From assembly GCF_021155765.1 (NCBI RefSeq), contig NC_060115.1, positions 12,070,493 through 12,134,492 of the forward strand: 64,000 nucleotides of DNA, read 5' to 3'. Origin of the DNA: Diprion similis (Eukaryota; Arthropoda; Insecta; Hymenoptera; Diprionidae). Shown here one piece after another: positions 13,174-56,900 of this stretch. Below the pieces are notes generated by a model. The model was not told the DNA's origin and did no database searches. It saw only the letters and a program-made list of their open reading frames with translations. A program made the translations under genes and the position numbers. The stretch's first letter is position 1. Each line of letters begins with the position of its first letter.

Positions 13174-16086
13174 CTAGTATCTATTTTTTGCATGAGCTGA
13201 CCCAAGGGGTGGCTGCGGTGAATCTATGTCCGGATCTTGCAGGTATTGGAGCTCCTGCAATTCTTGGAATTTTTCGTGATCTCGGATGTGTGCGTAGTTC
13301 GCCGAAAGGCACATCAAATAATGAATCAAACTGAGAACAACGAGGAGAGAAGCGACTGTTGCCAGAATAAACATTACTTCCGCCTTTTCCACGTAATCCT
13401 TGCAAAATAGTTTTACTTCTTGTGAACCGCACACCTTCATATCTTCCACTCGTGTATTATTCGGGAATAGAAAATCTGCGGGAATAGAGTTGGTTATTAT
13501 TTGAATTTAAATATCCGACGTAATTCGGAGTTTTGTTTAATGAAGAAAATATTTTTGAGCTGGTTATCTGATGAGCTACTCTAAGAACGAAATTGAAGAC
13601 TTACCGAACTGTGTGAAATCTATACATTGATCAAGCGATTGAACTCTGGGGTGGCTGCACATCCCCCAAAATATACTGAAGATCAAAGTTGTTATCACGA
13701 GAAAGGCGAATATAAGCAGCCAGCCAAGTTGTAGAATGTAAGTGATCGTCATAAACTGAAAAGTAATCAACACGTGTTTTAGCCAAATGTACAGATATAA
13801 TTTTAAAAGTAATGTACAGACGAGGCTTTCGGTTGTGCTGATAATGTGAAGAGGGAAATTGAGAAAATAGAAAAAAATTAATCATTCAACGTCGTATTCA
13901 AAGTTCTTCCACATTTTCAAACAGGCAGCTGGTAATTTGAGAATTTTTCGTATTATCGTGAGAAAGACACCCAAACAAGTTTATCTTTTGTTTAATTTTG
14001 CACTTAAATTGAACAACTGTTCATGAAAATTAGAGAAAAAACAGAATACTAAAAATTCGATCGAAGATCAGTCTTTCACATTCCAGTTTCCAGCTGGTAA
14101 ATATTAGCTTTTGCAGGAAATAACTGGAATTATTTACAGAAATGATGTCATCAAACCGAAAATGAATTTAGTAACTCAAACTTACAACTGCACAAGAAAT
14201 CCTTCCACCGACTCTAGATCTCCAAGCTCGATATACTCTGTGCCTTGTTGCACCGGTTGCTAGGCATCCGACGCATAGTATCATGAATCCAAGAGCTGCC
14301 ATGCTCGCTCCTACTATGGCAAAAATGAGCTGCACTGCTTCAAGCCAAGTAAGTCGCTGGTGAAACACCTGCATAATTGAATGATGAGAATATTAGTTAC
14401 ACATGATTTATTCAAACTGTAAGTTGATAGTGAGGGAAAAAAAAAATTTACCTGGTCTAACATCAAGGAGGCAAGTGTGGCGCCGCGGTACATAGTACCA
14501 CAAAATATTCCCACTCCAAGACAACACATGATCGTTGCTATCAGAGTGGCGTACGGCACTCTGGCCATTATGTCGTTGCACATGTTTCCTGTGAAAGAAT
14601 ACAAAGAAATTTACGTGCATTTTTAGTTTTTACTGAACCAATTTTTAAACAAATAGCCTCATGAGAATTTGGATTAGCTGCAAAGCAGTTAGATTTGAAA
14701 ATTAGCTGCGTGATGAATGTATTGCTAATGGTCACGCAGAATTTAAAACGTCGAAAGGGTTGAGTCCTTATGCACTCAAGTGCAAACCCATGAATACATT
14801 GAACAACATATTTTGCTAATAGATTACTTTTACTCCGCCTTGAAATCCCCTAAATGTCATTATTTAGGCTGCCTTTTATTTTTGTATTTTGGTATTGGAT
14901 AGATTTGGATCATCTATTATTTTGATTGAGCAATAATCAGAGACATTTTGTTGTACACATAATTCAAAATAATACCATCTTGACTCTAGGAATCGACACT
15001 ATATGTACAAAACAAATAACTTACACAGGGCTTACGCGCACCCTAGCACTTCAAATCAACGTTGCTAACGGACTGTTTATCGTAGAAAGGTTTTTTTGTC
15101 ATTCGAGTGGTGAAAGACTGAAGAATGGAATAGTATGTGCAAAAAAACCTAATATGAATTTTTCGCTGTGAAAAATTTGACTGAACAAAATAAGAAAAAT
15201 GATTTTAGCATTTCTCTTAAATTATGTGGGATTAGGCGTACCCGTGTGTAGGGTTCTAGAATTGAAGAAAAAAGATACGACACGCAGAAGCATTTTGAAT
15301 AGCGAAAAAACAATGACTACTTTATTGACAAGATACATACTCCCGTCACTATATCTGTTATATTTAATCTTGAACGCCGAACAAATTAGTTCTAGCAAAA
15401 TGCATTTCGGACGAGTGAATCTTGCCATGGAAAGAATGAAATCTTCTTATCTATCCTAAACGTTGTTTGAAAATTTGACTACGAAAAATTATTTTCATCT
15501 GTCAAATGACTAAATAAAACGTGAACAGTATGATTTTATTGATTTTGGAAGGGTAGGTTGTAACTTACTCGTTTCATCGTTGATCTCATAGCGATCATGA
15601 ATGTTATGGTCAGAATACCTGTCCAGACTAATTGCACTATTAAATCTTTTTTTATTCAGGGGCACCGCAACAGAGGCTTCTTCGGTTCCTCTATTGCGTC
15701 TCCACTGCTGAGCCATAGCTCAATATTCTTCAACACTTACGAACCAAATTTCACAAAGAGAGCAGACCAGCATTTACTTTAATCGACACAAGCGATTATC
15801 TGATGACTAATCAAACTACATAGCAACGTAGATTCTAGATTAGATTGTAGAGAAGAATTTATACGTCGATATAATATGGTAGGGGAATTGAACTAAGCGG
15901 CAAATGATGAATTAAATGGATCCTTTGCTGTGAAGAGTACTTCATACTCGAAATAATGGTTTTATGGTCATCCTTTGAAGCGTGAAGTGAGAACAAAATA
16001 TGGCAGTAGCCACACCCCCCTTTCAAGACGCAACGTTATCAGAGCCAAGAGGATTGAGATTCGATTAGAAAATAAAACTTACCCAT
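13174..16086 (-). CDS. M6: M6 proteolipid protein (PLP/DM20 family), 5 coding exons
   Basis: The gene encodes a four-pass membrane protein of the myelin PLP/DM20/M6 family, which acts in the plasma membrane of neural and epithelial cells. The exons read on the minus strand are 16086-16083 (ATG plus one base), 14588-14452, 14368-14186, 13755-13605 and 13475-13174. They sum to 777 nt, or 258 residues, a normal length for M6. All junctions are GT/AG and the phases agree. Family signatures include MARVPYATLIAT, GVGIFCGTMYRGAT, the cytoplasmic loop GCLATGATRHRVYRAWRSRV, QSLDQCIDFTQF, and the final segment KAEVMFILATVASLLVVLSL followed by CLSANYAHIRDHEKFQELQE. The paired extracellular cysteines are present. 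The start follows from the donor at 16082, because ATG G joins the next exon in frame. An alternative first coding exon is listed separately. Confidence 0.95.
15569..15716 (-). CDS. M6: alternative 5' coding exon of M6 (long N-terminal isoform)
   Basis: A 49-codon open stretch begins at ATG 15716, with an in-frame TGA two codons upstream. It ends at a consensus donor (GA|GTAAGT, exon end 15569) that leaves one base over. The short M6 start exon also leaves one base, so both splice into 14588 in the same frame. The long isoform would be about 306 residues. The peptide is hydrophilic and arginine-rich near its start (QQWRRNRG), with serine and acidic residues later, as expected for a cytoplasmic tail ahead of the first membrane segment. 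Phase and donor are seen in the sequence; use as an M6 isoform is inference. Confidence 0.6.
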
Positions 16087-21319: not shown

Positions 21320-23724
21320 TTAGGATGTATTCAGTCTTGGAGACTTTTCTGGAAATAGGGAAAAAAATAATGAATTAAAAAAATTTCTCAATATGGTCAT
21401 ATGATTAACGAATTCTTGTAGCAATCAAACCTGCAGTTCGGTAAACAAATTTTTCCAAATTTCAGATGCGAACGAGTTAGATAAAATTGATTTAAACAGA
21501 AAATTAACTATTTTAAAAAATTGAAAACTCAGATTCTTTTGAAATGGGATCAGCCACTCTTTTTTTTATCGATTCCTACAATCCGGTTTTATTTTTTATT
21601 TGATGATCCTCAATAATTTAAATGTCAAAAGAAATATGTAATAATAATACCTTTTATATAATTATCCAGCAATTCTTGATCTCGCTGCAAATAATCTTTG
21701 ACGTCTTGTACCATAACTGGTGTGATTTTATCAGCTTGCACAAGATATTCCATAAGACTAGTGAGGGTAAATAGGCTCCTCATTTGTATACCGTTTTCTT
21801 CAAGATTCTTCCGCCCTCCTTGTTCTCTGTCCAAAATTACAAACGCTTCCTGTACCTTCAATCCCTCGTTTATCAAATCCTTAGCAGTCCTCAAAACACT
21901 ACTTCCGGTCGCCACCACATCTTCAATGATAGTGCAAGTATCACCTGTGTTGAACTGGCCTTCGATTAACTTCTTCGTTCCGTAGGTCTTGGCCTCTTTT
22001 CGTTTCATCAACATTGGGACGTCTGCTTCGACGGATATCAGTGTCGCGATTGGTAATGCTGTATACGGGACGCCACAGATTTTGGAAATACCCTTACTGT
22101 TTATTGCAGCAAATTTCCACAAAATACTAGACACAGACTTCTGTAAGGTTTACATATGGGTTAACAAAAATGTTTTTATACCTGCATTTGAATTTTATCC
22201 TAATTTCAAACGCTCAGGAAATGTTAATACCACTCACGTAATGATTGCTATAATTCATTTCATAATATTTTATGCGAAACCTGTTTGATATCATGCAACT
22301 TTGCCTAGCACAACACTTGAACTAAAAATATCACATTGCCTTTTTTCCACCAGAAACTTTATATATTTCACGTTAAAAAAGATTGATGACTTTTTTCAGA
22401 CCTTTCTTTCAAACTGATTTTCAACTACGGTTTTCGTGTATAAAAAGTGATTAAAATCAGTAAAAAAAAATTTTTTTATGCAATTCGAGAGTATATTTCT
22501 TAAGCCTAACAAAGCCTATATCAATATTAACAGTTAAAACTTATTAAAAAAATTCTTGAAAACACCTTTTTTTACTCGTAGACTAGACCCCTTAAGTGTA
22601 CACGTATACGTACCGTGTAAGTTAATTCTAACATAAGCCCGTGTACAAATTTCATGAGTGAACGGTAAAATTGAAGATAGTACAAGCAGAATCATATCGC
22701 AAACCTCGCATTACATCAAATTTTGGAGCTAATTGCCAAACAGGGGAGTCATGTACCTCACTTTTCACTCAAATAATACAAATATGAATTATAAATTTGG
22801 TATAAATAATATTTCACTAATTAACAATGAAATCAGAAAGAAATGATATGTTTGTTTGATACGTTACTGATATAATAATTGAATGAGAACTGCAGCAGCA
22901 ATGTCGCTACTTTTTCGGTCTGACTAACATCGGATCATTTTTTCTCTACGCAGATACTTTTGTGTGTTCTCCGGACTGCTTCTCTTCCCGAAAGTGTATA
23001 TTTAAATAGTTTTTCTTGTATTCTGTTTTTACATTGATATATACATATCTGCAATATGATAAAACATGAAATGTGAAGAACAAAGTAAATTTCAAATCTG
23101 GCGCGACGTTAAGCACAGGCCTTATATTAGACAAAGCGACGTTGCCAATGCCTACGCGTTTACGACTAGCCTGGCATTCTGTCTAAGTATTACTTTTGCC
23201 TCGATTTATCATTAAATAGTTCTCCAGAAGTTTCGGTTATTTTTTTGTAGCCTGCACATAGAAACCCAATACTTCAAAGTGCAGACTATAACCCGTTTAT
23301 TGCGCAACTGCTAAGTCGTTGACGTCACAATCACTGGATTAAAATTTTGCGAGTGACTAATGTGTTATGAAGTCTGGTTTCCTTATTTTTCTAGAGCGAT
23401 TATTTCTCTTACGTGTCCGATTAATGACTCTGAAATTTTGTATACATAACCTAGAATACTTTTTCATCGAGTTATCAAAGAATCAGACATTCTCTCAGTT
23501 AGTTGGCCAGCGGAAAAACCACCTTAAGTGTAGGGACGTTTCTAAAAGTTGAATAACGCGAAAACCTTTGCAATACTTACCAACAAATGCGGATGTGATA
23601 TAATCACGCGCAGATCGAACCATATCGGTGTCAGAATACCAGCTGCGTGTGTTTCGAAGCTGCCAAATCTTAACGCGTCAATTTCAAATAATTGTACCGC
23701 GATTTTTCTGAGCTCTTCATCCAT
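21320..23724 (-). CDS. UMPS: orotate phosphoribosyltransferase, UMP-synthase-like but without decarboxylase half
   Basis: The product should transfer orotate onto PRPP to make OMP in pyrimidine synthesis, in the cytosol. Minus-strand exons are 23724-23581 (48 codons), 22140-21651 and a likely last exon 21348-21320 that ends in a stop codon. They total 663 nt, or 220 residues, with consistent phases. Recognised OPRT features are CGVPYTALPIAT (about 70-81), the catalytic loop RKEAKTYGTK (about 95-104), the PRPP motif TIIEDVVATGSSV (about 118-130) and LDREQGG. Animal UMPS is normally about 480 residues with a C-terminal OMP decarboxylase; none was found on either strand of the window. Residues 24-29 read ETHAAG where the family usually has a lysine-containing KSG loop. 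The first two exons are firm. The terminal exon rests on a good acceptor (CTATTTCCAG) and phase only. Confidence 0.8.
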
Positions 23725-26565: not shown

Positions 26566-27036
26566 CGTAAAGTCTTACTTTATATGGCGATTTTCGAAAC
26601 TGCCTTGTAAAGTCTGTATACGGCAGTTTCGATACGCAGTTCGAAGTGCGCATTGAAACTGACGTATAATAGCTATTTATGTGGCATGCTCGTAAACCGC
26701 CTGCTTTTTTGGCAAGGATAAAGATTTCAGGACGAGCTGAAGGTGAGCCGGAAGCGAGCCGGAAGCGAGTACCGAAATTATCCGAGCCAAAAAACGGTTT
26801 ACGGGCATGCCACATACAACATTTTTTACGGTATGGGCATTGAAAAGCAAAACGAAGAGTGAGGTTATGTCGCGATCTGTTCGACGAAGCTATTTTATTC
26901 GGCAGTTTGGGACGCGCACTTCGAACTGCGCATCGAAACTGCGGAATAAAGACTTTATTCCGCAAGTTTGTTCGCTGCCGTATAAAGCGTCACTTTACGG
27001 AACGAAAACTGCTACAAAAAGTGGACTTTTAAAAAA
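26566..27036. mobile_element. compound fold-back element, copy 1
   Basis: Two adjacent inverted-repeat units are present. Unit A, about 26679-26816, is bounded by TGTGGCATGC(C/T)CGTAAACCG and its reverse complement, with a GAGCCGGAAGCGAGCCGGAA core. Unit B starts at about 26823 with TTTTTTACGG.ATGGGCATTG and carries the palindrome GCGGAATAAAG-A-CTTTATTCCGC at 26941-26963; its far end appears truncated near 27036. A further reverse-complement fragment of unit B lies at about 26566-26670. A second copy, in the opposite orientation, is at 43056-43426. No transposase is encoded. Confidence 0.7.
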
Positions 27037-27198
27037 AAACGATACTTTATACGGCAGTTCTAACTTTTGCTAGGCGGGCCGACACTTGGATCTCAAGTGG
27101 CATCAAAGTGAATTTCCATCCTTTGCCGGAAAAATACATTATGGGGCTCGGCCGTAAACTGATCTTGGCTCGAATAATAATTTCTGTACTCGGTTCCA

Positions 27199-27802
27199 TC
27201 AAGACCTTTGGTGATATTGTGCGACAACATCATGAGGTGCACTCAAGTTAGCGATTTTAGATGTTACAACGTAACCCATCATGGATTCCAATTCTTCGCC
27301 AAGTTCTCCACCGTCAACATCACTGTTTCCATCTTCCTTTTTTAGGAAATTTTCCAGAGACATTGATTTATTAAAAATTTGGGATCTGTATAATCCTATA
27401 AAGTTGTGTGAGTTTTGCATGATACTAAAAGGTTTGGCAAATGTCTGTGGTCATCGCGAAACGTTCTCGTAAAGTTTATACCGCTATGTCGGGTAATTTG
27501 TTGAAAAATTCAATTTCCAACCCTTCCATTGGATCGTTTGATCGTTCATCGCATTGAGATTCATAATCGAAAAGTCGTGTCTTGTCCGTGGGGTACGTGA
27601 TTCGGGTAAAGTTTGCGGAATGTTCAACTGTTCGGTCTTTAGCAACGGCTAGGCATTTTTCAAAACCGGATTCTCGAAAGGCTTGTAATTGAAAGAGAGC
27701 AACATCGATCAAGTTCATCGCGATACGTAAATCAACTTTGCGATATTGTAGGGCCTTACTGATTTTGTTAATCACTTGAGGTATGTCATTCCATACTATC
27801 AA
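27199..27802 (-). pseudogene. transposon-derived protein fragment (possibly hAT/ZMYM-like)
   Basis: Two minus-strand frames lie end to end, separated by a frame break near 27430-27475. The upstream one (27802-27476) has the pattern NKISKALQYRKVDLRIAMNL followed by a leucine/glutamine-rich helix, which recalls the helical C-terminal part of hAT-related transposase proteins. The downstream one (27420-27199) is acidic. A decayed version of the downstream part recurs on the plus strand at about 38690-38915, which supports a dispersed repeat and not a host gene. The family assignment is from memory of pattern only. Confidence 0.4.
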
Positions 27803-27809
27803 TCAAATG

Positions 27810-30470
27810 AGAACGGACAGCTTTTTCATAAATGATTCTTCATTTTTGCTTTATGGCAATTTGCAACAAATATTGTGTATTCTGTAATTTTCAGACCCCC
27901 TCAGCCATATGGCCCTGTGCCATGGAGTGTCCGATATGTATGTTGCAGTGAGTGTACACGCATGCATATATCGGAGCATCAAGAACCGAAGACTGTCATA
28001 CGTACAACAGCCAACGCTACGAATTGGCGATTTAAAAAATTAAAAAACGAGGACAAAACGCGTATTCGTTTTTCGTATAGAAATAAGTGCCAGTGTCATC
28101 CCCTGCCAATGTTTCGTACAGCGTTTCGTAGTATCAAGGGCCTCAGGAATTTCCTTCTAATCAGGTTATTGCCAAAATGGTCTGTACAGATTCGAATGTG
28201 ATGATAATCATTGTTTTGTCCGACAAATCTCACCATTTATCACGATTGTAATCAAAAGTTGATATAGTGCGCACATATATATATGTATACCATAAGACGT
28301 AATTGGATGCGTGCGGCGAAAAATGAACCTTAACTTCGAGATTAAATATATAATTACGAACTAGGTACATGGTTGATTTTCATCCTTTTATAGTCTTCAA
28401 CGGTGAATTAGAGGTTCAGATGGGTAAGGAATATTACTTTGTATTGTTTGTTAGTCTAATTTTTGGAAGTCTTAATTTCTAAATCAACTTCTATAAAATT
28501 CTTAAAAATTGCACGTGTATAATTCACCTCTTTTATCTGTCTTCGATGTCCAGCTACCATGTATACTCTTTTTCTATACACAATTGCTGTCATAGCGATT
28601 AACGCTATATTCACAGAATCAGTCACCCTGATAGAAGTCCTTCTGCAAATGCATCGTAACGTTAGCGACCACTTATAATTTCAAGATTTTTCAGTATACT
28701 TTGATCTATGAAGCATAGTTTCTCTACCAGATAAAATACTCAGCCAAAACTAGCTTGCATGGAAATTTTTGGACTCTTGGATTAATTACACTCAAGTCTA
28801 GGGAATAGGATATCGAATCTGTGAATGCAATTGAAACGCGTTATCAAGGTTAGTTTCAATACTAAAAAAATGCTTTTTTACTTAAGTGGAGGAATTCTAC
28901 TACAAGTACTGTTACTTGTATCTCCCATAGAAATAAGTAAGTCTGCGTCGTGTTCGTTTCAGTCGTTCGTATGAGAACAATTGATTTATTAAGAGACAGG
29001 GAAGTGTTTCGAGCAAAGCAACATATAACTCCGAGCGAGCAAATTCAACAGTATTGATTCAAGTAGAAATTTATAAATTCCATAAAAAAACTTTTTTTAT
29101 ACAATATAAATCCATAGTCCAGTCACAGCGTCAACGAAAATTTTTGGACGTTGCTTCAATTCGTCTAATACAATGAGTGGAAATGATGTTCACGTGTAAA
29201 TGTGTTTCATAGTCATGACTAAGTCAAAATACAAAAATTAGCCATAAATGATAAATTAGTTGAAATCAGTTTCATCAACTGCGGACCTTTCGATAAGGCT
29301 GGACGCATAGCCAGTAGTCTTGCGAAGCCCTAGTTTATACTTACGTGATCGATTACACTTGGTTTGACAATCTGTAACGCCTTCGAACAAACTGGGTGCC
29401 CATGAAATTATGTTAAATAACCATGATTTTGTTCGAGAATAATTCTCCGCATTTTGAAGTTATCAATGTCTACAAACAAGTAGTGAAATTCGCAAAAGAG
29501 CAGCGCTGGTGTAAAAATCTTGGGCCAAGTATATTGAAGTGGAAACTACAAATGAAAATTCACTTTAGAACTGAGAAGCCACCAAAATAACAATCTACGT
29601 TGAATTAGGTACCAGCAACAATACACTTCCTACGATAAAACAACGAAATTAAAATCCTTACTGCCAAGTTAGTGACTTCTTTGCAAAAATAAAAAATCAA
29701 TACTCAAAATGTCGAATTGGGGACTAAGTAAAGAATTCCGGGTTAGTTGTACTTAGCGGCCGTTTTTGGAAGAAAAACTAAAAAATTTGAACATTATCAT
29801 TTCTTGTACGCACAATGCCGTGACTATATTTAACGATACAGCATCTTTGTGCCACTATATGTAGACTACCTCTTAACAAGGCAATAAATTTACCGCATTA
29901 CAGCTTATCAGTTCAACCGAGGCTACATCTGAGAAAGACATACGCAATTTTAGAGGTGATTTTTTAGCTGGATCTTAGTTATTATAATATAGCATTCTTA
30001 GAAATTGCGCTATAGAAAGGATTTGTGTGGATTGATTATGGTACATGAAAGAGATAATCCACGAACCAGGTGGAAAACTCGCAGAAATGGCAATATATAA
30101 GTCCCTGCATCAAATAGATTTTCTCATAGATCCGATGGTAGCAAACTTCTATATTTGCCAAAGGCGCTTTTATTCGTCTTGAGCATACCGATTGACTTGC
30201 ACCGTGCTTCATTCTTTACTTTCTAAAAAGGTTCGCCAAGTACACATAAATGCGAATTCTTCGTTTCGTCCCTAATTCTGCATTTTTAGTGTTGATTTTT
30301 TATTTCTGCAAAGAAGTTATGTACTCGGCAGTGAGGAATTTGATTTCAATATTTTTTTTTTTGCAGGAAGTGTATTGTTGCTGGTACTTATTTGAATGTC
30401 CATTGTCATTTCGGCGGTTTTTAAGTTGCAAAGTAAAGTTTTGTCGGTAGTTTTCACTTTCGTATTTTTG
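27810..30470. other. intergenic, no supportable gene
   Basis: The sequence is AT-rich. A 108-codon plus-strand frame at 27875-28201 is not recognised and has no supporting context. Nothing else is seen. Confidence 0.6.
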
Positions 30471-31651
30471 ACGCAAAATTTTTGCATTAGAGGTGCTGAC
30501 GGCGGATTCAAAATACGCTGAGCATTCTCTCCATCCAATCCTCTTTTGAGGGAATGTTCACGTTTAGCTTTAACGCCAACTAGGCGTAAAGTTCAACTTT
30601 TCACCCGCGAAACATGAACGTTTTCTCGTACTTTACGCTTATTGTAACGAAAATAGCTATATCCAATGTACGGAATAGCCAATGTTGTCAAACCTTTAAT
30701 GCGTGTTGTCACTTTGGAACGGCCATCAGCTGTTACCGTCGAGTATACTCTAGAATACCTTCTTATTGCCGTACAGAGTATTTCTCGTCCCACTCGTCCG
30801 GCAGGGCTTAGCTGAGCTAATTGCTTTTATCTCGTGCAAAATCACGTAGCACACACATTAATAGTGAATTCTTCGTCATCTTCCTTCGAGTCACGAGAAG
30901 CCTCAACACCTCTGAGTCCAGGTACATTTTGTTATAATTTATTATTTTATTTTTGTTGTTGGTTGTTCTGTTCATTACTTTTTTGTTTTTGTTTGTTTGT
31001 ATTCTTTATTTATCAGGCGAGTGGGTTTTCAAGTTCACCTTCATTTGTACCGTCAATTAGCTGTTCAATCACTCAGCATAGAGTTTTGCAACAAACAACG
31101 AACTCTCATGTAGATTTCCTATCTTTTAATTGATTTTATTTATTTCCTCTCCTGCCTCGTCCATCTTTGGAAAATTGTAAACACTACACCAGAGTATGCT
31201 TGGGAACTTAGACTTTCGAAATGTGTGGAGCATGCGTAAAGTGCCCCGTTCCTGAACAGTGCCATAAGACGACGCTGGCGCGTGCGCTCAGTTGAAACCC
31301 TCAATTTTACACACTACGACTTTCTCTGGCGGATGATCACTATGGAAAAACTTGATTTCACGCACCGTGTCATTGAGCGTAAGTTGCCCAACCCCAATTT
31401 CATGCGGTGTCGGTGGCACCTTCGGTGATTCACAAACAAAACTTTCCTTCGAAGGTGTTGTAAAAAGTAGGGAGTTTCGTGCCTACGGATAGGCGATATA
31501 TAATTCGAACAATTGCGGCACTCGCCCCCGACGGTTCGTATTAAAAACTGCACACTCAGTTCGTGTTAAGAACTTCACTCTCGTCGGAAATCGCCCCTTT
31601 TTCGTGCTTGTAACAACTGTATTACAAAAATTATCACATTTGACAAACGTA

Positions 31652-31657
31652 TTTATT
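31652..31657 (-). promoter_or_regulatory. candidate poly(A) signal AATAAA of left secreted-protein gene
   Basis: The hexamer AATAAA lies 156 nt after the stop codon, at exactly the same distance as in the right-arm copy. Confidence 0.55.
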
Positions 31658-31812
31658 TATAAACACATTAAATAAAATTACATAATCGAATGCACTACAG
31701 CGTCGCATAATTAAATATAGTGCGAAAACAAATTTTCACAAAATTTGAACATGAGGTTGGATAAATATTATTTTCGGAGGAACATGTAAGTGATATCCAT
31801 TCGTAAGAGCAC

Positions 31813-32612
31813 CTAATCATTTTCATTCCAGTTCTGTGAATTCGTCGAGTTTACGCTTTGCGCCACATTAGCAGCGTTTGCACGTGATGCATCGGTATTT
31901 GATGCAGCGACGTTATTACCATGGGATTGGTTATCTTCAATCGCTATTCCAGATTCGAGAGTGTTGATATCGATTTCGACTGATTCATCCCGTACAGTAA
32001 TCTTTATGGAATTCTTCCTCTGGACCCCGGCGGCCTCGGTTAAAGAATTATCCCCAGTTTCAGCTCTAGCTGCTCCTGTACTATAATCCGCCTGGTAACG
32101 ACATTATTATTAGTTAATATCTAATTGTGCTTCAAGATCATTCACTTATAATACCTACGTAACCATCATCGACTGTGATGAAGGAGATATGAGATAATGA
32201 ATCACCCCTTTGGGACGAGGGCTTGAAGTGTCGCGGTTATTAATAAGCCAATTGTTTTATTTCGGTTATCATGTTATTCTTCATGTATTGACACTACTCA
32301 ACTACGTTGAAACATTTCAAAATTCATTACTTTCATACAAGAACATTGCCGGAGCATTAGTAAACGTTTCGTTGACGCCACGGTACAGAAGGCACCACTT
32401 CGAAATAAAAAAACGCGTTTGATAAGTTTCAAGTATCTTGAAATTAGACGAGCGATGATCAATCGGTCAGAAGTCGAATTGAGTGCAATGCTTACCGCTC
32501 CAACGGTTGATGCTGCTTGTTTCACATCCACAGAATTCTGTGCACGATAAGCCATAGAGACTTGCGCCAGGACGACGACCGCCACGGTCAAGAAGAGAAG
32601 TTGACTTGCCAT
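31813..32612 (-). CDS. secreted protein of unknown family, left palindrome copy
   Basis: The gene has two exons on the minus strand, 32612-32496 (39 codons) and 32091-31813 (93 codons with stop), joined in phase 0 by GT/AG. The product is 131 residues. The first 20 or so residues, MASQLLFLTVAVVVLAQVSM, are a clear signal peptide. The mature part is hydrophilic and rich in Asn, Ser, Ala and Val, has no cysteine, and ends SQNWNEND. Candidate N-glycosylation sites are DNSL and NSTN. The start is set at 32612, not at the upstream in-frame ATG 32690, because the TATA-like element CATAAAAG (32660-32653) lies between them. I do not recognise the family. The diverged twin is at 34420-35214. Confidence 0.75.
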
Positions 32613-32652
32613 GTCGACTGGATGTCTATGCTGTTTTTGAATACGCAGTCGA

Positions 32653-32660
32653 CTTTTATG
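32653..32660 (-). promoter_or_regulatory. degenerate TATA box (CATAAAAG) of left copy
   Basis: It sits 41-48 bases before the start codon, at the position where the right copy has a perfect TATAAAAG. One T-to-C difference separates them. Confidence 0.55.
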
Positions 32661-33360
32661 CTCATCGAAATTTGCCGCCGACATTGACATAGTTGTGAAT
32701 TTTTAATAAAATTGGTACACGGGTGAGACGACCTCAATAGTTCACAGTTGTCCAAACGTTCGTACTAGCGTTGCAGAAATATCGTGCAGACGAAAACGGA
32801 TCGGTATTCACCGAGACCTCGGTTTTTCCAATATTTCGCATAAGTGTTGACACACTTTGAAAAACAAGACCAATTATCCAAGGTCGAGATAATAGTACCT
32901 CAATAAAGTAGGCATCAAGTGTAAACCGAAGAAAAAGCCACCTTCGTTACAAGCGTTACACGCGGAAAAAAGTCCTGATTGAAAACACCATACAAATCTG
33001 GTACCGAGATTCTAGACGTGTCAACCTGAAAATACAGTTGTTCTGACTTGAATAGTTTAGTTACTTCAGCCAGTGCGTTTGGTTACTGCGTCTAGGACGA
33101 ATTACTAGGCAACCGGTTACAACCGCCTCCTTTGCAAATTGCGCCCCCACCCACCCCTCCACCAATAGCCGGCGTCGTATCTTCCGGAAACCTTCTCCTT
33201 TTCTTTTCCGGTTCACTGTATCTCCGGGTATATTACGTTGATAAACTCGAAGTTTTTGGTTTTTTATTTTACCGGAATTGCATTTTGATATCGGTACATC
33301 CGACTCTATGTATATGCAGGTAATATCAGATTACATATACACGGCCGTATCAGGGAATGA

Positions 33361-33667
33361 AATCGAAACACTTATATATAGCCATAGACAGTTTGATCTG
33401 TCCATGTATTGTTTGATATATCCGTATATAATTGATCTACCTGGATAAGGTATCCAGTACATGGACAGATCACACCTGACAGGCCACATCAGACTCATTT
33501 TCATATCATGCCTAATATGGACGATTCATACATAGCCATATCGAGGCGTATCAGAAAGTTTTTTCAACAGATGTACGGTCATATTCACTCGTGTATGATT
33601 TGTTACGACCATATAACAGCATATAATGATAATCCTGAGATATAACTGTAAATGTTTCTAACTCTGA
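33361..33667. other. palindrome spacer with nested hairpins
   Basis: About 300 bases separate the two arms. They contain an inverted pair GATCTGTCCATGTA (33395-33408) and TACATGGACAGATC (33458-33471). Inside its loop is a perfect hairpin CTGGATA-AGG-TATCCAG (33441-33457). No coding frame is seen. Confidence 0.8.
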
Positions 33668-34371
33668 ATTTCATTCCCTAATACGGCCGTGTATATGTAA
33701 CCTGATATTACCTGCATATATAGTCCGATATACCGATATCAAAATGTAATTCCGGTAAAATAAGAAACCAAAAACTTCGAGTTTATCAACGTGATATACC
33801 CGGAGATACAGCGAACCGGAAAAGAAAAGGAGAACGTTTCCGGAAGATGCAACTACTGCTGGGGCGTAGGGGGAGGGGGGGGGGGGGGCGCAATTTGCAA
33901 AGGAGGCGGTTGTTAGCGGTTGCCTGGTAATTCGTCCTAGACGCAGTAACCAAACGCACTGGCTGAAGTAACTAAACTATTCAAGTCAGAACAACTGTAT
34001 TTTCAGGTCAACACATCTAGAATCTCGGTACCAGATTTGTATGGTGTTTTCAATTAGGCCTTTTTTCCGCGTGTAACGCTTTTAACGAAGGTGGCTTTCT
34101 CTTCGGTTTACACTTGATGCCTACTTTATTGAGGTAATATTATCTCGACCTTGGATAATTGGTCTTGTTTTTCAAAGTGTGTCAACACTTATGCGAAATA
34201 TTAGAGAAACCAAGGTCTCGGTGAATACCGATCCGTTTTCGTCTTCGGGATATTTCTGCAACGCTAGTACGAACGTTTGGACAACTGTGAACTATTGAGG
34301 TCGTCTCACCCGTGTAACAATTTTATTAAAAATTCACAACTATGTCAATATCGGCGGCAAATTTCGATGAG

Positions 34372-34379
34372 TATAAAAG
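34372..34379 (+). promoter_or_regulatory. TATA box (TATAAAAG) of right secreted-protein gene
   Basis: A consensus TATA box lies 41-48 bases before ATG 34420. This implies a transcription start near 34400 and a 5' leader of about 20 bases. It argues that the in-frame ATG at 34342 is not translated. Confidence 0.75.
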
Positions 34380-34419
34380 TCGACTGCGTATTCAAAAACA
34401 GCATAGACATCCAGTCGAC

Positions 34420-35214
34420 ATGGCAAGTCAACTTCTCTTCTTGACCGTGGCGGTCGTCGTCCTGGCGCAAGTCTCTATGGCTTATCGTGCACAGAATTCT
34501 GTGGATGTGAAACAAGCAGCATCAACCGTTGGAGCGGTAAGCATTGCACTCAATTCGACTTCTGACCGATTGATCATCGCTCGTCTAATTTCAAGATACT
34601 TGAAACTATCAAACACGTTTTTTCATTTCGAAGTGGTGCCTTCTGTACCGTGGCGTCAACGAAACGTTTACTAATGCTCCGGCAATGTTCTTGTACGAAA
34701 GTAATGAATTTTGAAATGTTACAACGTAGTTGAGTAGTGTCAATACATGAAGAATAACATGATAACCGAAATAAAACAATTGGCTTATTAATAACCGCGA
34801 CACTTCAAGCCCTCGTCCCAAAGGGGTGATTCATTATCTCATATCTCCTTCATCACAGTCGATGATGGTTACGTAGGTATTATAAGTGAATGATCTTGAC
34901 AATTAGATATTAACTAATAATAATTTCGTTACCAGGTGGATTATAGTACAGAAGCAGTTAAAGCTGAAACCGGAAATAATTCTTTAACCGAGGCCGCCGG
35001 GGTCCAGAGGAAGAATTCCATAAAGATTACTGTACGGCATGAATCAGTCGAAATCGATATCAACACTCTCGAATCTGGAATAGCGATTGAAGATAACCAA
35101 TCCCATGGTAATAACGTCGCTGCATCAGATGCCGGTGGATCAGGTATAAACGCCGCTCATGTGGCGCAAAGCGTAAACTCGACGAATTCACAGAACTGGA
35201 ATGAAAATGATTAG
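34420..35214 (+). CDS. secreted protein of unknown family, right palindrome copy
   Basis: The gene has two exons, 34420-34536 and 34936-35214, joined in phase 0 by GT/AG. The product is 131 residues. The signal peptide is identical to the left copy (about residues 1-20). In the mature part a central block (VQRKNSIKITV, then ESVEIDINTLESGIAIEDNQ) is identical in both copies, apart from one His/Asp change between those two motifs. The segment just after the intron and the segment near residues 103-113 differ by replacements such as GGSGIN against DASRAN. There are no cysteines; NNSL and NSTN are possible glycosylation sites. A candidate poly(A) signal follows at 35370. Function is unknown; a short, intact, TATA-driven gene for a secreted product suggests tissue-specific high output, which is inference. 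Confidence 0.8.
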
Positions 35215-35369
35215 GCGCTCTTATGAATGGATATCACTCATATATTCCTCCGAAAATAATATTTATGCAACCTCATGTTCAACTTTTGTGAAAATTCGTT
35301 TTTACACTATATTTAATTATGCGACGCTGTAGTGCATTCAAATATGTAATTTTATTTATTGTGTTTATA

Positions 35370-35375
35370 AATAAA
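35370..35375 (+). promoter_or_regulatory. candidate poly(A) signal AATAAA of right secreted-protein gene
   Basis: AATAAA lies 156 nt after the stop codon, matching the spacing in the left copy. Confidence 0.55.
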
Positions 35376-36026
35376 TACGTTTGTCAAATGTGGTAGTTTT
35401 TGTAATACAGTTGTTACAAGCACAAAAAATGGGTGATTTCTGACGAGTGTGAAGTTTTTAACACGAACCGTCGGGGGCGAGTGCCGCAATCGTTCGAATT
35501 ATATATCGCCCATCCGTAGGCACGAAACTACCTACTTTTTACAACACCTTCGAAGGAAAGTTTTTTTTGAGAAGCACCGAAGGTGCCACCGACATCGCAT
35601 GAAATTGGGGTTGGCCAACTTACGCTCAATGACACGGTGCTTGAAATTAAGTTTTTCCATAGTGATCATCCGCCAGAGAAAGTCGTAGTGTGTAAAATTG
35701 AGGATTTCAGCTGAGCGCACGCACCAGCGTCGTCTCATCGCACTGTTCAGGAATAAGGCACTTTACGCATGCTCCACATGTTTCAAAAATCTAAGTTCCC
35801 AAGCATATGTTGGATACAGCTATTCTCGTCACAATAAGCGTGAAGTACGAGAAAACGTTCATATTTTGCGGGTGGAAAGTTGAGTTTTCCGCCTAGTTGG
35901 CGTTAACGCTAAACATGAAGATTCTCTCAAAATAGGATTAGATAGAGAGAATGCTCGGCGTATTTTGAAACCACCGTCAACACCTCAAAATTTATATTTC
36001 ATACATAAACTATTTTTTGAAATAAA

Positions 36027-36092
36027 GTTTTAATAGTTCATTTATAAAACTTTGATTTTCTAAATCAAAAAAAAAAATCATGTTTTCAAAAC
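36027..36092 (+). pseudogene. numt tRNA-Thr with altered anticodon
   Basis: The 66-base cloverleaf-like segment begins GTTTTAA and ends TTCAAAAC, with an anticodon stem TTGAT/ATCAA. The loop reads TTTCTAA, giving TCT where mitochondrial tRNA-Thr has TGT. This is one change and fits decay of a nuclear copy. Confidence 0.65.
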
Positions 36093-36149
36093 TATTTCGA
36101 TAAATTTACTTCCATTAAATTTTTCTAAATTAATTATAATAAAATTTCT

Positions 36150-36642
36150 GAACCTTATTAATAATAATTAATACAATAATAATATATATACCAAACCACC
36201 ATTTTTAATAGGACTAATTTTATTAATTCAAACACTGATAACTTCTATAACATCAGGAATAATAAGATTCAGATTTTGAAATTCTTATATACTTTTTTGA
36301 AATTTTCTTAGGGAGATTACTAATCATCTTTATTTATGCATCAAGATTAATTTTTAATGTAAAATTTTTATGTAATAAATGAATACTATAAAATATTTGA
36401 ATTATTTTCTTAATTATCATTTTAATTAAATTCAATAAATTGAATTTTATTCTAGAAGATTCAATAAAAATATCAGAAATTGAAATAAATAAAAATTTTC
36501 CAATAAAATTATCTCTCAACAAATTATTTAACAAACCAACTTTTATTATTTCATTTATAATAATAAATTTACGTTTTGTCACATTAATTATCGTAGTCAA
36601 AATTTCTAATATCAACATAGGATCTTTCCGAAAAATATTTTA
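36150..36642 (+). pseudogene. ND6: numt ND6 fragment
   Basis: In the mitochondrial code the frame gives ND6-like text (FLIGLILLIQTLITSITSG near the start, then FRGLLIIFIYAS-type residues after a shift). It has nuclear stop codons at TGA and runs into CytB with the short overlap usual for insects. Confidence 0.7.
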
Positions 36643-36645
36643 AGA

Positions 36646-37174
36646 AAACCTAATCGATTTAAATTCATATTATTAAAAATATTTAATAACATACTAATTG
36701 ATTTACCTACTCCTTCAAATATTTCATCTATATGAAACTTTGGATCTTTATTAGGTTTACGCTCAATTACTCAACTGATTACAGGAATTTTTTTAGCTAT
36801 ACACTATACACCTAATATTAACCTAGCTTTTGATAGAATTATTCATATTTATCTTATTCTTAATAATGGATGAATAATTAAAAATTTGCATGCCAATGGG
36901 ATATTAATATTCTTTATTTGTTTATACATCCATATCGGACGAGGGATTTGTTACGGATCATTCAATATAAAATAGACTTGAAGTGCAGGAGTTTTTGTTA
37001 TTTTATTAACAATAGCTACTGCATTTTTGGGTTATTTTCTTCCTTGAGGACAAATATCATTTTGAGGGGCTACTGTAATCACAAAAAGGTCAAATTTTAA
37101 CATTTATATTCTTTTGTAATTTTTTTTTGTTATATCCTTTATTTACTAAATTATGAAATAAAACTTTATATTAA
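36646..37174 (+). pseudogene. CYTB: numt cytochrome b with internal deletion
   Basis: Residues resembling the CytB N-terminus ([66 protein letters not shown]) run to about 37085. The sequence then jumps at about 37090-37140 to the extreme C-terminus (TKLWNKTLY and stop, ending 37174). TGA codons stand for tryptophan. The normally conserved segment after the second haem ligand region is altered (HIYLILNNG), consistent with relaxed constraint. Confidence 0.85.
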
Positions 37175-37184
37175 ATAAATAATT

Positions 37185-37252
37185 AAATCAATGAACTTGA
37201 ATAAGTTCATGTCTTGAAAACATAATATAGAAGTTTAATCTTTTATTGATTT
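37185..37252 (+). pseudogene. numt tRNA-Ser(UCN)
   Basis: A 68-base segment with acceptor arms AAATCAAT/ATTGATTT and anticodon loop CTTGAAA (TGA). It sits between the CytB end and ND1, as in insect mitochondria. Confidence 0.75.
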
Positions 37253-37269
37253 TAACTTAATAATCAATA

Positions 37270-37830
37270 TTTCTTATAATAAAATACAACAAAAAATAAA
37301 TTTCAAACTTACAAATAAAATTAAATAATTCAAACTAATAGGTAAAAATTTTTTTTCAAGCTGTTATTATTAACTTATCATACCGTAAACGAGGTAAAGT
37401 AAAGTACCTCGAATTAAAATAAATATAAAACAAATAAAAATTATTATTAAATAAAAAATAAAATCTCTTAAATCACACCCTAAAAATATTAAAACAAATA
37501 ATATTCTTACAAACAAAATTCTTGAATGTTCAGATAAAAAAAATTATAGAAAAACCAACTCCTTTATATTCAATATTAAAACCAGATTCTAATTCAGATT
37601 CTCCCTCTAAAAAATCAAAAGGCTTACGATTAGTCTCTGCTAAACATAAAATAAACCAAATGAAATTTAAAGAAAAAGTCAAAAAAATAAATCTAATAAA
37701 ATTTTAATATAAATAAAATAAAATTATTGAATAACCCTCAATTAAAAAGAAAAAGATATTAATAATAAAACTAATCTAACTTCGTAAGAAATAGTTTGAG
37801 CAGCTTTTCGTAGCATATCTCTCTTTAATC
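37270..37830 (-). pseudogene. ND1: numt ND1 fragment
   Basis: The minus strand encodes ND1 landmarks [34 protein letters not shown], and further on a disrupted version of the usual PRFRYDKLM motif (PRLRYDKL). Stops and frame shifts interrupt it. Confidence 0.8.
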
Positions 37831-38680: not shown

Positions 38681-38689
38681 TTGCAAAAA

Positions 38690-38915
38690 GAACGTTTCGT
38701 GATGACTACAGATATTTGCCAAACCTTTTAGTATCATGCAAAACTCTCACGACTTTGTAGGATTATATAGATCCCAAATTTTCAATAAATCAATGTCTCT
38801 GGATAATTTCCTAAAAAGACAAGATGGAAACGGTGATAACATCTAAAATGGCTAACTCGAGTGCACTCATGATGTTGTCGCACATTGTTGCCAAAGGTCT
38901 TGATGTAACATATCC
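38690..38915 (+). pseudogene. second copy of transposon-like fragment
   Basis: About 200 bases match the reverse complement of 27199-27470. The shared landmarks include CCAAACCTTTTAGTATCATG, TTTATAGGATTATA-type sequence, and the GAAACGGTGATAA / GTGCACTC region. Stop codons interrupt the frame. Confidence 0.6.
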
Positions 38916-41436: not shown

Positions 41437-44400
41437 TTATAAGACACCAGTTACCGGTTCCGTGGTGTTTAGAATGTCCGTCGAATTGTGACAGTAAGCA
41501 AGTGTTTTCCCGTGGAAACAGGAATCGGTCGAACCCGAGGTGAAGATGAGCAGCAGGAGTCCGGAAACGGCTGCGAATACTCCAGAAAGCATCAATCCCA
41601 AGGCGGGAAGCTTCTTCGCCGAAAACAGCGAGCCCTCTTCGAGTCTGAGGTAGCAAAGTGCGGGCAAAATGTAGGCCAGTGGTACTGCGGCCAGAATCCC
41701 ATTGAGTTCGAGGACGACCCCGAGGCAGTCGGTTGACATTGAAATTAGGTATGTCACCCCTACGATGCTCAGAGTTATTATCAAGTACTTCCGGTCGGAG
41801 CCGGAAATGTAGGCATCGTGATTCTCCGTTTCGTCCGTACCCTTTATCGCGGTCATTAGAACCTGTTGAAACGAAATACACGTGACGAATTAGCGTCTGT
41901 CTCTGCTTAAAGTTTATGCATAGAAGAGTGAAATCATTTTCTATGTAATACAAATGTTGTTGAATGTTTTTAATGCAAACTCGATTAATTTTTATCGAAT
42001 TTCTTCATATATTTGTTAACGAGAATTATACGCTCCAAGGAAAGTTTCATGTGATGAAGTTTCTGAAATGTTTGGAAAGTATAATATTTCAGCATTGTTA
42101 TAACACCTGGTGGTTCTACTGAGAAAATCACATCATGGTGCCATGGTTTCGTTGAAAAAAATCAATATCAGGAAGGAAATTTGGACGTATAACAAATATC
42201 TTAACTCTGTCGCATGATTTAACGTGATCAGTTCATAATACAATTCAATTTTAACCTTATTTCGTTACGAATATTTTGTAAATAAGGCTATACTATGTAC
42301 TTGAGTAAATTACCATGATCGCAGATTTCGGATTGTTCTTTAAACAGAACAATAAGATGGAATTTCCTTTTACCAATCAACAATTGAGATATTGTAGAAT
42401 GGCACTTGTTATACGTGTTAATTAGAATCTGCAGGCAGTGACCTTTTTCACCACTTTACCGACCGTGCGAGCTAGTTTTAATTTTCTCTAGGAACTGTCA
42501 TTCTATCAAGTGTAAATTACTGAATGCTGTATAGGACTCGTATTCAACCACCCGAATATGGCGTGATGGGAATTTTATATTTTCGTTCCAGCATTCCATG
42601 ATTTACACCCGATAGAATGACAGTTGCTAGAGAAACCAATCGTAATTTGAAATGAAAACTAGCTACCACAGTCGGTAAAGTAGCGAAAAGGGTAGATTCT
42701 AATTAACACATATATTTGAGAATGACCAAAAATAATCGATTATTTTTTCTCCATAATCAAGTATAATCGATTAGTTTTCAAAGTCGATTAACCAACCGAA
42801 TCGATTATTTTTCCTCGCAATAGGTTTTTGTTTTTTACTCCCATATACGAGTACAGTATTCGCAAGTGTATAGAAAATGCTGCTAATTTTCTATTCACCA
42901 CAAAGAATTGTTCAGTAAACTGAAGTTTGATAGCAATCGCAACGGTTTGATATTTTCATACTTGAAATAAATGCACATTCGGTAGAACAGATTGTAAAAT
43001 CGGTCCAACTACCTGAACAAATGTTAATGAAATAAATAATACTTATAATTTATTTTTTACGGCATGGGCATTGAAAAGTCCACTTTTTGTGGCGATTTTC
43101 GTTCCGTAAAGTGACGCTTTATACGGCCACGAACAAACTTGCGGAATAAAGTCTTTATTCCGCAGTTTTGATGCGCAGTTCGAAGTGCGCATCCCAAACT
43201 GCCGAATAAAGTAGCTTCGTTGAACAGATCGCGACACAACCTCACTCTTCGTTTTGCTTTTCAATGCCCATACCGTAAAAAATATTGTATGTGGCATGCC
43301 CGTAAACCGTTTTTGGCTCGGATAATTTCAGTACTCGGTTCCGGCTCGCTTCCGGCTCGCCTTCAGCTCGTCGTGAAATCTTTATCCTTGCCAAAAAAAC
43401 AGGCGGTTTACGGGCATGCCACATAAATAGCTATATGCGCATATTCTACATTACATCGACATGCGTACCTCTCTAGTAACGAAACACTCGATAGGATAAG
43501 TGAGAAGTATCGTCCCACTGAACATGACCCTTGAGAGATTCATAAGATCGTCGTCCCAGCAGTAGTTCTCCATCAGATCGCCCTGGACATCGGCGGTGAA
43601 AGTGGCGTATCCAGCAATACCGAACGCAGCTGCAACGATGAACGACGTAAGAAGGGACCAGTGAGTGACAACGTCCCACTTTTCCTGTGTCACTCTTTCG
43701 ATTGACCCGTAAATAAGGAAAGTGTTGTGATGGCACATGAATGCAAAAGCCATTATTCCCACCGCTGGAACGATTCCTGGAAGGTTGGCGAATCTCCAGC
43801 TGTCTTCGTGACTTGGCCTAATGATTGATAAATAGAATCTATAGATTGTACAATATGCATAATTTTTTTATTAAATACAGGAACAACAGTACAAATTCTT
43901 CGATGGCTAGCGTTCAGTATTATATGTATAATTATATCAGGTTCACAGTAAAAAATCCATGCAGGAAAAAATTTCTATCTATTCTCCGAAGTTTTGAGAC
44001 CCAAACAGATATTCAAGAACAACTACTTTTAAGTTGCAAATTAACCGTTCATCTTATACGTTTTGTGTTCTTGCAAATAAATTCGGAGTAGGTGTTGATT
44101 TCTTAGGTCAAATGTAGAAAGATTTCGATTGAAATATTATCTTTTTGACGTTAAGAAAAAATCCAAAATGCTCGGCAACAACAAGAAATAAAAATGTATC
44201 GAAGTTTCGGAAATCTTTGGTACAGTCCGTTCGACAATGTTGTTGTGAAACCTCAACGTCTTTTCTCGAATAATCTGGATGAATATGGATGGTTACTTTT
44301 TATGTGTCGCGATGCACGGTCCGTCGAGATTTATCTTTAATCGCAGTGAACTCTCAGCTTCCACTCTGACGTAATGAAGTTTCAATCGCGGTGTTCCCCC

Positions 44401-53901: not shown

Positions 53902-56900
53902 ATGGCGACGCGGAATGACAGAAAACGAAAAAGTAATGAAAAAACTACAAAACATTTGTCTAGCTTTTACGGAAAGACGTGGATAATAATCTTAGGTAAG
54001 ACCATTGCATATGCAAAGTGATAGATCACTTTGGGGCCGTGAAGATCGGTAGTTAACCTTTTCGGATTGATTACTACAGCCAACTACAGTCAGATTGATG
54101 CACTACTTTCAATTGTTTAACAGCTATTTTCCTCGCGCCTCTCCACCACATTCATGTATCAACACTATTTGAAAATGATCGACACTTCTCTCACTTGTCT
54201 GAGGTGGAAAGAGAGATGTCCTTCAGAACGGAAATGGTAATCAATTATCAACACTCATGTACACAGGCAAACAAAAGTTTGATAACTTGCCACTATTTTC
54301 TAGAATTTCTAGATGACTATGTATGGCATTGGCAGACTTACCAAAAATAGCACTAAATTATAGACATTCATTTTTTTTCCTTTTCAAAGAATTCTCATGT
54401 AACTCTCAAAGAAATGCTGTCAAGTAATCAAGCTTCAAATTTACGCATGTGAGAATAATAGGGCCGCAATATTTTTACTCTCTTATTTGTTTCAGGGGAT
54501 GTACTATTCTTACTACAAAACTATTGTCGAGTCTGAAACATTCTCTGAAGGATTACACAAGATTAGGCACGACAATTTGACCGAGTATCCAAACACTATC
54601 AATGCTATTAAAAAGTATAATTTGTTTCCAGAGGTATTCTTTTAGCTCTTAGCTCTTTTGTATTAATTGATTCAACTCGGCTAATTTTTTTTATTACTTA
54701 CACTGATTTCTGTTCTTTCAATTTCTAGGTTGCTATTGGTCTACTGTACCACAATTTCAAATGGCTAGGTTTGATCCCAGCACGATTATGCTGGCAGGTA
54801 TGTAAATCATACTTTTATCCTGTAACAATTCCGCTCCAAAAATGTGTTCAAATATCTCTGAAATTTTATACCCAAGTAAAACTTCCTTACAATGTTCTGA
54901 TTTATTTCGACGATTGCCAATTCGCAGACTTTCAGGATAGGTTTTTAGAAAATGAGCAGGTTGAAAACGTATTCAGAAAAAAAAACAAGAAAACAAAAAA
55001 ACTACAGGGGTTATCAAAGAAATATTAATTTTCAACTTTCTCCATTCGTTTCAATATTTCTGAATTGAAGTTCCATAGAAGTTCTTAATTCACAAGCTTT
55101 TTCAGACTCTAATCTCAAATATATCACAATATCTTTAACTCTTGTTTATTTCAGATTGAACGTGGAGAAGGTTTGTCTCCTGTGACAAGTTGTGAAGGCT
55201 TAGGGGAGCCAATCTATTTTTACTTGGAAGTTGTTTGGTATTGTGCCTCTGCCACAGTGGCAGTACTCTTTCTGTATGCCGTCAACCTAAGTGATTCCAT
55301 CTATGGTGGTCTGATAGCAGTCGCTTTGTTCTTCTACAATCATAACGACTGTACCAGAGTTCAATGGACGCCACCATTACGTGAGAATTTTGCCTACCCT
55401 ATATTACTGTGTCAGATGTTTAACGTAACAGCTATACTAAGAAAGTATGCGAAGAACCGAAAAATCGTCTGGAACGATATTCATCAAGATACACCAAGCA
55501 GGGTAAATTGATTTTCACGTTACCTACTCTTACTGAGTCCATTACAGCCGATATATTTCATACTTTCTTATACCAATTCTAATACCAAATTACATGCTCT
55601 GCTATTCCAAAGTATATCTATTTTTCAGGACATGGTTATGTGTACCCTACTGAGTTTGCTGTGCTGGCAATTTTCGCAATTCGTATTTGCCACTCAGCTA
55701 TTTGCGCTGTTGATATTAAAGTGGTTGAAAATAATTCCCAACGAACTGTACCTGAAACTATGTCTTATACACGCTGTGCCAGTAACAATGTTTATTTTCT
55801 GGACACAGAGCAATTTGCTTCTTTGTTCTTTGTACACTTGCATGTTGATTGCAAGCACTATTTGCTCTGTTTTGAGCACCAAGCTACCACGTACTATAGC
55901 GCTGCCTATCGACGTCGCGAGCACTATATTTGGGATGCAATTTCTGAAATTTTTTTTGCTAAACTCAGATGACGATGGACATATTTTTGATATTTTACTA
56001 TCAAAGTTTACTAATTATAAAACGTTTCACACAATGTTGTATACTTGTTCTAGTGAATTTGACTTTTTAGGATATGACACCTATGAAGCCATAGTAAAAA
56101 CATTTCTTTTACCAACAGTCATAATGTCGGGTATTTTAGTTTTGTACTATTGGTACAGATGTTTCAATACAGACGGTTTTCCCAATTGTATCGAAATGGA
56201 CGTCGCCTATAATGTTCTGCAAACAGGAGCATTTATAATTATGGCAATTCTTATAATGCGGTTGAAACTTTTCATGACACCACATCTCTGTATCATGGCC
56301 AGTATAGTAACAAGCAAACGATACTTGGAAAAAGTTGAAATTCGGAACCCAAATATTCGTGCCTCTTTATTGGTTCTACTATTTGCCTGTATGTCGTATA
56401 CTGGAGTCCAGCGTCTTTACGAAGAACATGGATTCGTTGGTATGAAGATTTTTAAATTCCATTATTTACCTGAAAGAACAGTCATTTTCTTTACGGGATT
56501 CTTCATTCCTTTGTGAAGATCCAGTCTGGTTACTTCAGTGTATTTCGGATCCATCATAATAATTTCTGGCAATGACTTGGCTACTTTATCTTTAAAATGG
56601 ATACATTTTGAATTCTATGTTACAGGGGAATACAGTAATATTGAACAAGAACAACTACTAGACTGGATACAGAAGAATACACCAAGCAACGCTGTATTTG
56701 CTGGTAAAATGTCGTTAATGGCAAATATTATGCTGTCTACCAGAAGGCCTATTGTTAATAATCCCTATTACGAAGATAAAGAGATGAGGTCCGTAGAGCC
56801 ATCAGAATAACACAATGAATAACTGAATAATAGCAATACTATAACTCATTTGTTACTGGTTCACTTGTGTCCTCTGCTTTCAGAGATCGTACCTTGAAGG

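Follow-up and report, generated by a model that had tools for sequence, protein, structure and literature searches.

A palindromic gene pair of Diprion similis bounded by a mobile element and a nuclear copy of mitochondrial DNA

Results

The subject of this study is a large palindrome in the genome of the hymenopteran insect Diprion similis, which carries two divergent copies of a gene for a putative secreted protein. It lies within a stretch of 64,000 nucleotides (the window; RefSeq assembly GCF_021155765.1, contig NC_060115.1, positions 12,070,493 to 12,134,492 of the forward strand), that is, at 12.07-12.13 Mb of the 16.1-Mb contig C11 in a genome of 269 Mb and 60 contigs; all positions given below are those of the window. 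TTAGG, the telomere repeat that marks arthropods, has 10,300 forward and 6,745 reverse matches (0 for the reversed control), and its presence at the start of contig C1 shows the assembly to be of chromosome grade.

The palindrome extends from 30487 to 35989. Its left arm is made up of an outermost segment (30487-30666, forward strand), which pairs with 35810-35989, and a main segment (31195-33363, forward strand), which pairs with 33668-35807, while the right arm (33668-35989, reverse strand) runs in the opposite orientation. The homologous length amounts to 2,349 base pairs (bp) on the left and about 2,322 bp on the right, and the inverted copies are separated by a single-copy spacer of 304 bp (33364-33667), part of which resembles dispersed repeats. 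Self-comparison thus bears out the first-pass annotation of this DNA, which had described inverted arms of more than 2.3 kb (here about 2.33 kb) across a spacer of about 0.3 kb, and the length and identity of the arms exclude a palindrome that arose by chance. The left arm is interrupted by a stretch of 528 bp (30667-31194), parts of which match dispersed copies on other chromosomes (C7, C9, C1 and C8), whereas the right arm is uninterrupted at the equivalent site. The simplest reading of these sequences is that this stretch is a later insertion into the left arm.

Each arm contains an intact two-exon gene model that reads away from the spacer, so that the two copies form a closely linked, inverted pair. 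The left gene, on the reverse strand, consists of the coding part of exon 1 (32496-32612), which encodes the putative signal peptide, a phase 0 intron (32092-32495) and exon 2 with the stop codon (31813-32091); the corresponding parts of the right gene, on the forward strand, are 34420-34536, 34537-34935 and 34936-35214. The splice sites are alike in both models, and a poly(A)-like signal, AATAAA, follows 155 nucleotides past the stop in both (31652-31657 on the reverse strand and 35370-35375 on the forward strand). The promoters are not alike: the right gene has a TATA-like box, TATAAAAG (34372-34379, forward strand), the first base of which is changed in its left counterpart, CATAAAAG (32653-32660, reverse strand). 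Hence the earlier description of two complete two-exon genes with the same promoter, splice and poly(A) spacing holds at the level of gene models and for splice sites and poly(A) signals, but not for the promoter. An in-frame ATG lies upstream in both copies (34342, forward strand; 32690, reverse strand) and would add 26 residues if transcription started before the TATA-like box.

Both predicted proteins are 131 residues long and identical at 118 of these. Exon 1 is identical throughout (0 differences in 117 sites), as is the signal peptide it encodes, in agreement with the first-pass annotation. Judging by this signal-peptide-like N terminus, which was recognised by eye, the protein is probably secreted. 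The 109 residues that follow contain neither cysteine nor proline, are rich in alanine, asparagine and serine and have a predicted isoelectric point of 4.5-4.7. Structure prediction for exon 2 only (92 residues, with the first codon read as methionine, from two sequences) gave a mean predicted local distance difference test score of 50.0 and a predicted template modelling score of 0.23, with a beta hairpin at residues 24-33 and 36-45 and low confidence for the remainder. No Pfam or NCBIfam family matched the protein above the cut-off, two Pfam matches with an expectation value (E) of 0.1 being far below it, and no match above the cut-off was found among PDB sequences; the earlier statement that there is no recognised domain is thereby upheld. 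Nor did a search of the whole genome at E values up to 10 reveal a third gene copy, as it returned only four exon matches, all at the palindrome. Searches for RNA families gave none at the gathering score. A virus or bacterial origin of the gene was considered and rejected, as no relative was found in viral contigs, where none of 7 pattern stretches could be confirmed as such, or in prokaryote contigs, where the same holds for all of 129. At a guess, the protein could serve as a lineage-restricted gland or reproductive secretion.

The two arms differ at 127 of 2,315 aligned sites (about 5%), and these differences are distributed very unevenly. Going inwards from the left end, 22 of 180 sites differ in the outermost segment and 43 of 593 in 31195-31812, followed by 17 of 279 in exon 2, 7 of 611 aligned sites in 32092-32707 (partner approximately 34325-34935), 16 of 405 in 32708-33112 and 22 of 247 in the innermost segment, 33113-33363; the main segment as a whole accounts for 105 differences in 2,135 aligned sites. 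Thus, the outer and innermost segments differ by 7-12%, as compared to about 1% in exon 1, the intron and the promoter-proximal sequence. In permutation tests, which assume an even mutation rate, the longest identical run of 242 sites has a P value of 0.0001, and the poorest window of 600 sites, with 6 differences, was as low in 0 of 20,000 permutations. Coding constraint does not explain this tract, as the intron, with 5 differences in 399 aligned sites, is significantly less diverged than both exon 2 (Fisher's exact test, P=6e-4) and the flanks (65/840, P=5e-7). Because the intron is more alike than the exon downstream of it, we take the tract 32092-32707 to be a product of arm-to-arm gene conversion, and the sequences support such conversion in the promoter-proximal part, exon 1 and the intron.

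Exon 2 itself is a mosaic, in which 7 of 40, 1 of 152, 9 of 31 and 0 of 56 sites differ from start to end. The two conserved blocks carry no silent change where 3.2-4.0 would be expected (P=0.016-0.036) and therefore seem to reflect conversion more than constraint on the protein. The 9/31 patch is more diverged than the flanks (permutation P=0.022), and by codon list 8 of its 9 changes are non-silent; the diverged patches may owe their differences to diversifying selection, or else be older stretches that conversion did not reach. The first-pass annotation had offered very recent origin, gene conversion and selection for dosage as reasons for the persistence of two intact genes at such close range. 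Conversion between the arms is supported by the strongly uneven divergence, whereas very recent origin is not, as arm ends that differ by 7-12% are not very recent at any ordinary insect mutation rate.

At its left end the palindrome meets a dispersed mobile element (29400-30508, outer limits approximate) with inverted repeats of about 275 bp (29499-29771 and 30221-30497, 74% alike). This element belongs to a family of many copies, with at least 73 matches when the best 40 of 54 candidates were scored, and at its inner side it overlaps with the left arm: similarity to other copies of the element stops at about 30497 to 30508, which places 11-22 bp of the element's end within the arm. The right arm breaks off 11-22 bp into this element, which is complete only next to the left arm, and it retains the element's conserved terminal motif, GAGGTG (an alignment of 11 of 12 element regions, from which L045 was left out as it matched the arm only). 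Since the right arm contains this motif and the element's end, the element was in place before the duplication, and because only the left arm retains the whole element, the right arm appears to have been copied from the left one.

At its right end the palindrome runs into a nuclear copy of mitochondrial DNA (35986-37801), composed of two segments (35986-37085 and 37084-37801) that are 84.0% and 85.5% identical to the mitochondrial contig C45, which carries COX1 (PF00115), and whose translated matches contain stop codons. Where the two segments join, at 37084-37085, about 600 bp of mitochondrial sequence are skipped; the genes in this mitochondrial stretch are, as we take them to be, ND6, CYTB and ND1. 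The mitochondrial match starts at 35986 and the right arm ends at 35989, which leaves an overlap of 4 bp and no gap, and AAAAT is common to the join and C45, so that the outer end is a non-homologous or microhomology junction. A search with 2.5 kb of C45 returned 16 matches (from 18 candidates, all scored), namely C45 itself, two on C32, two at the palindrome and 11 others on chromosomes. At 1.8 kb, the copy beside the palindrome surpasses all other chromosomal copies of this stretch in length, as those 11 matches span 52-236 bp. Even if there were 1,000 random mitochondrial insertions in the genome, by simple arithmetic one of them would terminate 5 bp or less from one of the arm ends in only about 2 in 10,000 cases, and the contact between arm and mitochondrial DNA is therefore unlikely to be a coincidence. 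Neither the mobile element on the left nor the mitochondrial insert on the right had been noticed in the first-pass annotation.

Two further observations concern the mitochondrial contigs. With 25.3 kb C45 is large for an insect mitochondrial contig and has several kb of repeats that are more than 73% alike at both ends; a transfer RNA scan of it, run with bacterial-code settings that make the result say little, found none. A further contig, C32 (11.8 kb), also resembles mitochondrial DNA, with about 85% identity to C45 over 10 kb, and represents a large nuclear copy or else comes from the DNA of a relative.

Elsewhere the window contains, as conserved neighbours, a gene of the myelin proteolipid family (13174-14610), an OPRT-like phosphoribosyltransferase frame below the Pfam cut-off (21625-22149), exons of an SLC38-like amino-acid transporter (41437-43867) and Dpy19 (55512-56516); the palindrome lies between the second and the third of these. 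In addition, there is an inverted pair of 365 bp, 94.8% alike and 16 kb apart (26669-27033 and 43071-43434), which looks like a dispersed palindromic repeat because neighbouring pieces match in both orientations.

Discussion

How might such an arrangement have come about? The starting point would have been an ordinary single gene for a secreted protein with a short exon, adjoining a mobile element that bears long inverted repeats. After a double-strand break on the promoter side of the gene, processing would have yielded a single strand that doubled back onto its own sequence, and synthesis would then have copied the gene in inverted orientation, leaving the loop of 304 bp as spacer. Copying may have stopped 11-22 bp inside the element, whose inverted repeats can form a hairpin, and the new end would have been joined to the chromosome via a piece of mitochondrial DNA that shared AAAAT at the join. 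Later on, the ends of the arms would have diverged, while repeated conversion held the promoter-proximal part, exon 1 and the intron at about 99% identity and left exon 2 a mosaic. We consider this course of events, from the break through copying up to the element and mitochondrial sealing to later arm-to-arm conversion, the somewhat probable one, in which the break, the fold-back, the stalling at the element, the conversion and the origin of the mitochondrial piece in the same event are the parts that we infer. The arms, the gene models, the profile of divergence and the junctions with the element and with mitochondrial DNA are shown by the sequence itself. More tentatively, as something that falls short of probable, we put forward that one germline repair event did all of the former, i.e. 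that a fold-back gene duplication stopped at the hairpin-forming element, was sealed by 1.8 kb of mitochondrial DNA and gave birth to a divergently transcribed pair. Subsequent conversion would have locked its signal peptide, intron and promoter, leaving parts of the mature protein free to diversify.

Several points weigh against this reconstruction. The fold-back and the order of events are deduced from the duplicated locus itself. Constraint, and not conversion, may account for some of the high identity at the centre, and conversion alone does not explain that the two short exon-2 patches (9/31 and 7/40) exceed the divergence of the flanks. Furthermore, the mitochondrial DNA could have inserted later and cut short a right arm that was once longer, and inverted transposon fragments that lie roughly symmetrically outside the arms (27193-27467 and 38689-38909) are a possible remnant of longer arms.

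These last two points lead to an alternative that we regard as rather unlikely, in which an originally longer palindrome lost the outer part of its right arm, including the mobile element, in a later break that was patched with mitochondrial DNA, the two events being unrelated. The outer fragments speak for it, as they are 91% alike and lie beyond the arms at similar distances, about 3.0 kb on the left and 2.7 kb on the right. However, they belong to a dispersed family, being 82-85% alike to three further members on C1 and C6, and the right copy continues past the point where the left copy diverges. Moreover, a sensitive comparison of the outer flanks revealed no other homology apart from dispersed repeats, and truncation would have had to fall by coincidence within 11-22 bp of the inner edge of the element.

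But do two intact genes at this distance require that selection has kept them? That selection, for dosage or for diversification, retains both copies and maintains the palindrome seems improbable to us. Both reading frames and their splice sites are intact, and the two exon-2 patches are unusually diverged, with mostly non-silent changes in the 9/31 patch. Then again, exon 2 has a non-synonymous divergence (dN) of 0.069 and a synonymous divergence (dS) of 0.049, giving a dN/dS ratio of 1.39 that is not different from 1 (Fisher P=0.77), and its non-silent rate of 0.066 does not differ from the flank rate (P=0.66). In simulations, 17 random substitutions left the exon-2 frame open in 53% of runs, which makes the intact frames weak evidence for selection; likewise, with five gaps in the non-coding parts, about 1.1 would by arithmetic be expected in the 396 coding bases, so that finding none there is unremarkable. 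The altered TATA box on the left, too, argues against selection on both copies. We therefore reject two intact genes as a necessary sign of selection, and the sequences show neither the selection for dosage that had been suggested earlier nor any selection to retain the two genes. The two-copy state requires no special selection as an explanation.

An assembly artefact, in which two haplotypes or a chimeric fold-back read were joined head to head, is unlikely, and we give it next to no credence: the arms differ by about 5%, unevenly along their length, the left arm has its private insertion, the outer flanks differ and run on into conserved genes on both sides, and the locus lies 12.1 Mb into its 16.1-Mb contig in an assembly with telomere repeats. 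Finally, that the whole unit of 5.5 kb is a mobile element with long inverted repeats carrying the gene would account for the long inverted arms and for the resemblance of 31197-31526 to a dispersed repeat (about 70%), but is extremely improbable and was rejected, since no other copy exists in the genome, the exons being confined to the palindrome and the outermost arm end having no other strong copy (one 64-base match on C4).

The preferred reconstruction, fold-back copying followed by conversion, has precedents in part. According to one study (PMC3924832), the Drosophila pairs Hsp70Aa/Ab, Hsp70Ba/Bb and Amy-p/Amy-d are palindromic gene pairs with ectopic gene conversion, and like these the present locus has two closely linked mirror copies in which the gene is homogenised while other parts drift. 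Hsp70 and Amy, however, are conserved families under purifying selection, whereas our protein is of no recognised family. Moreover, at Amy the coding sequence is homogenised and the flanks are independent (PMC3924832), whereas here the intron, exon 1 and promoter-proximal sequence are most homogenised and much of exon 2 escaped. Human fold-back inverted duplications are explained, in PMC3907307, by a model with a single-copy (disomic) spacer that allows for foreign inserts, and in one patient a mitochondrial insert of 70 bp was found at the inverted-duplication junction. The inverted copies across a single-copy spacer are shared with the human cases, and the mitochondrial insertion at a junction with that one patient, yet the human duplications are large and end in a telomere or translocation, and the mitochondrial insert sits at the spacer junction (PMC3907307), whereas here the arms of 2.3 kb are interstitial and old and a piece of 1.8 kb sits at the outer end. 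Lastly, arm-to-arm conversion within an inverted repeat is also known from Y-chromosome palindromes such as human P6, whose arms are more than 99.9% alike throughout (PMC3723533), whereas at our locus only a centre of 0.6 kb is about 99% alike. A search of open-licence papers found no insect gene palindrome that ends in a mitochondrial insert, which does not show that none exists.

Conclusions

Events of this kind are known, and at this locus the scar is unusually readable and the junction informative. The gene it carries is an orphan, and the pair would, if our reconstruction is true, be a natural case of conversion protecting one part of a gene and not the rest. If the single-event model is true, the palindrome shows both the stopping place of fold-back repair, a hairpin-forming element, and its seal, mitochondrial DNA, and would mean that fold-back repair in the insect germline can make a fixed, transcribable gene pair.

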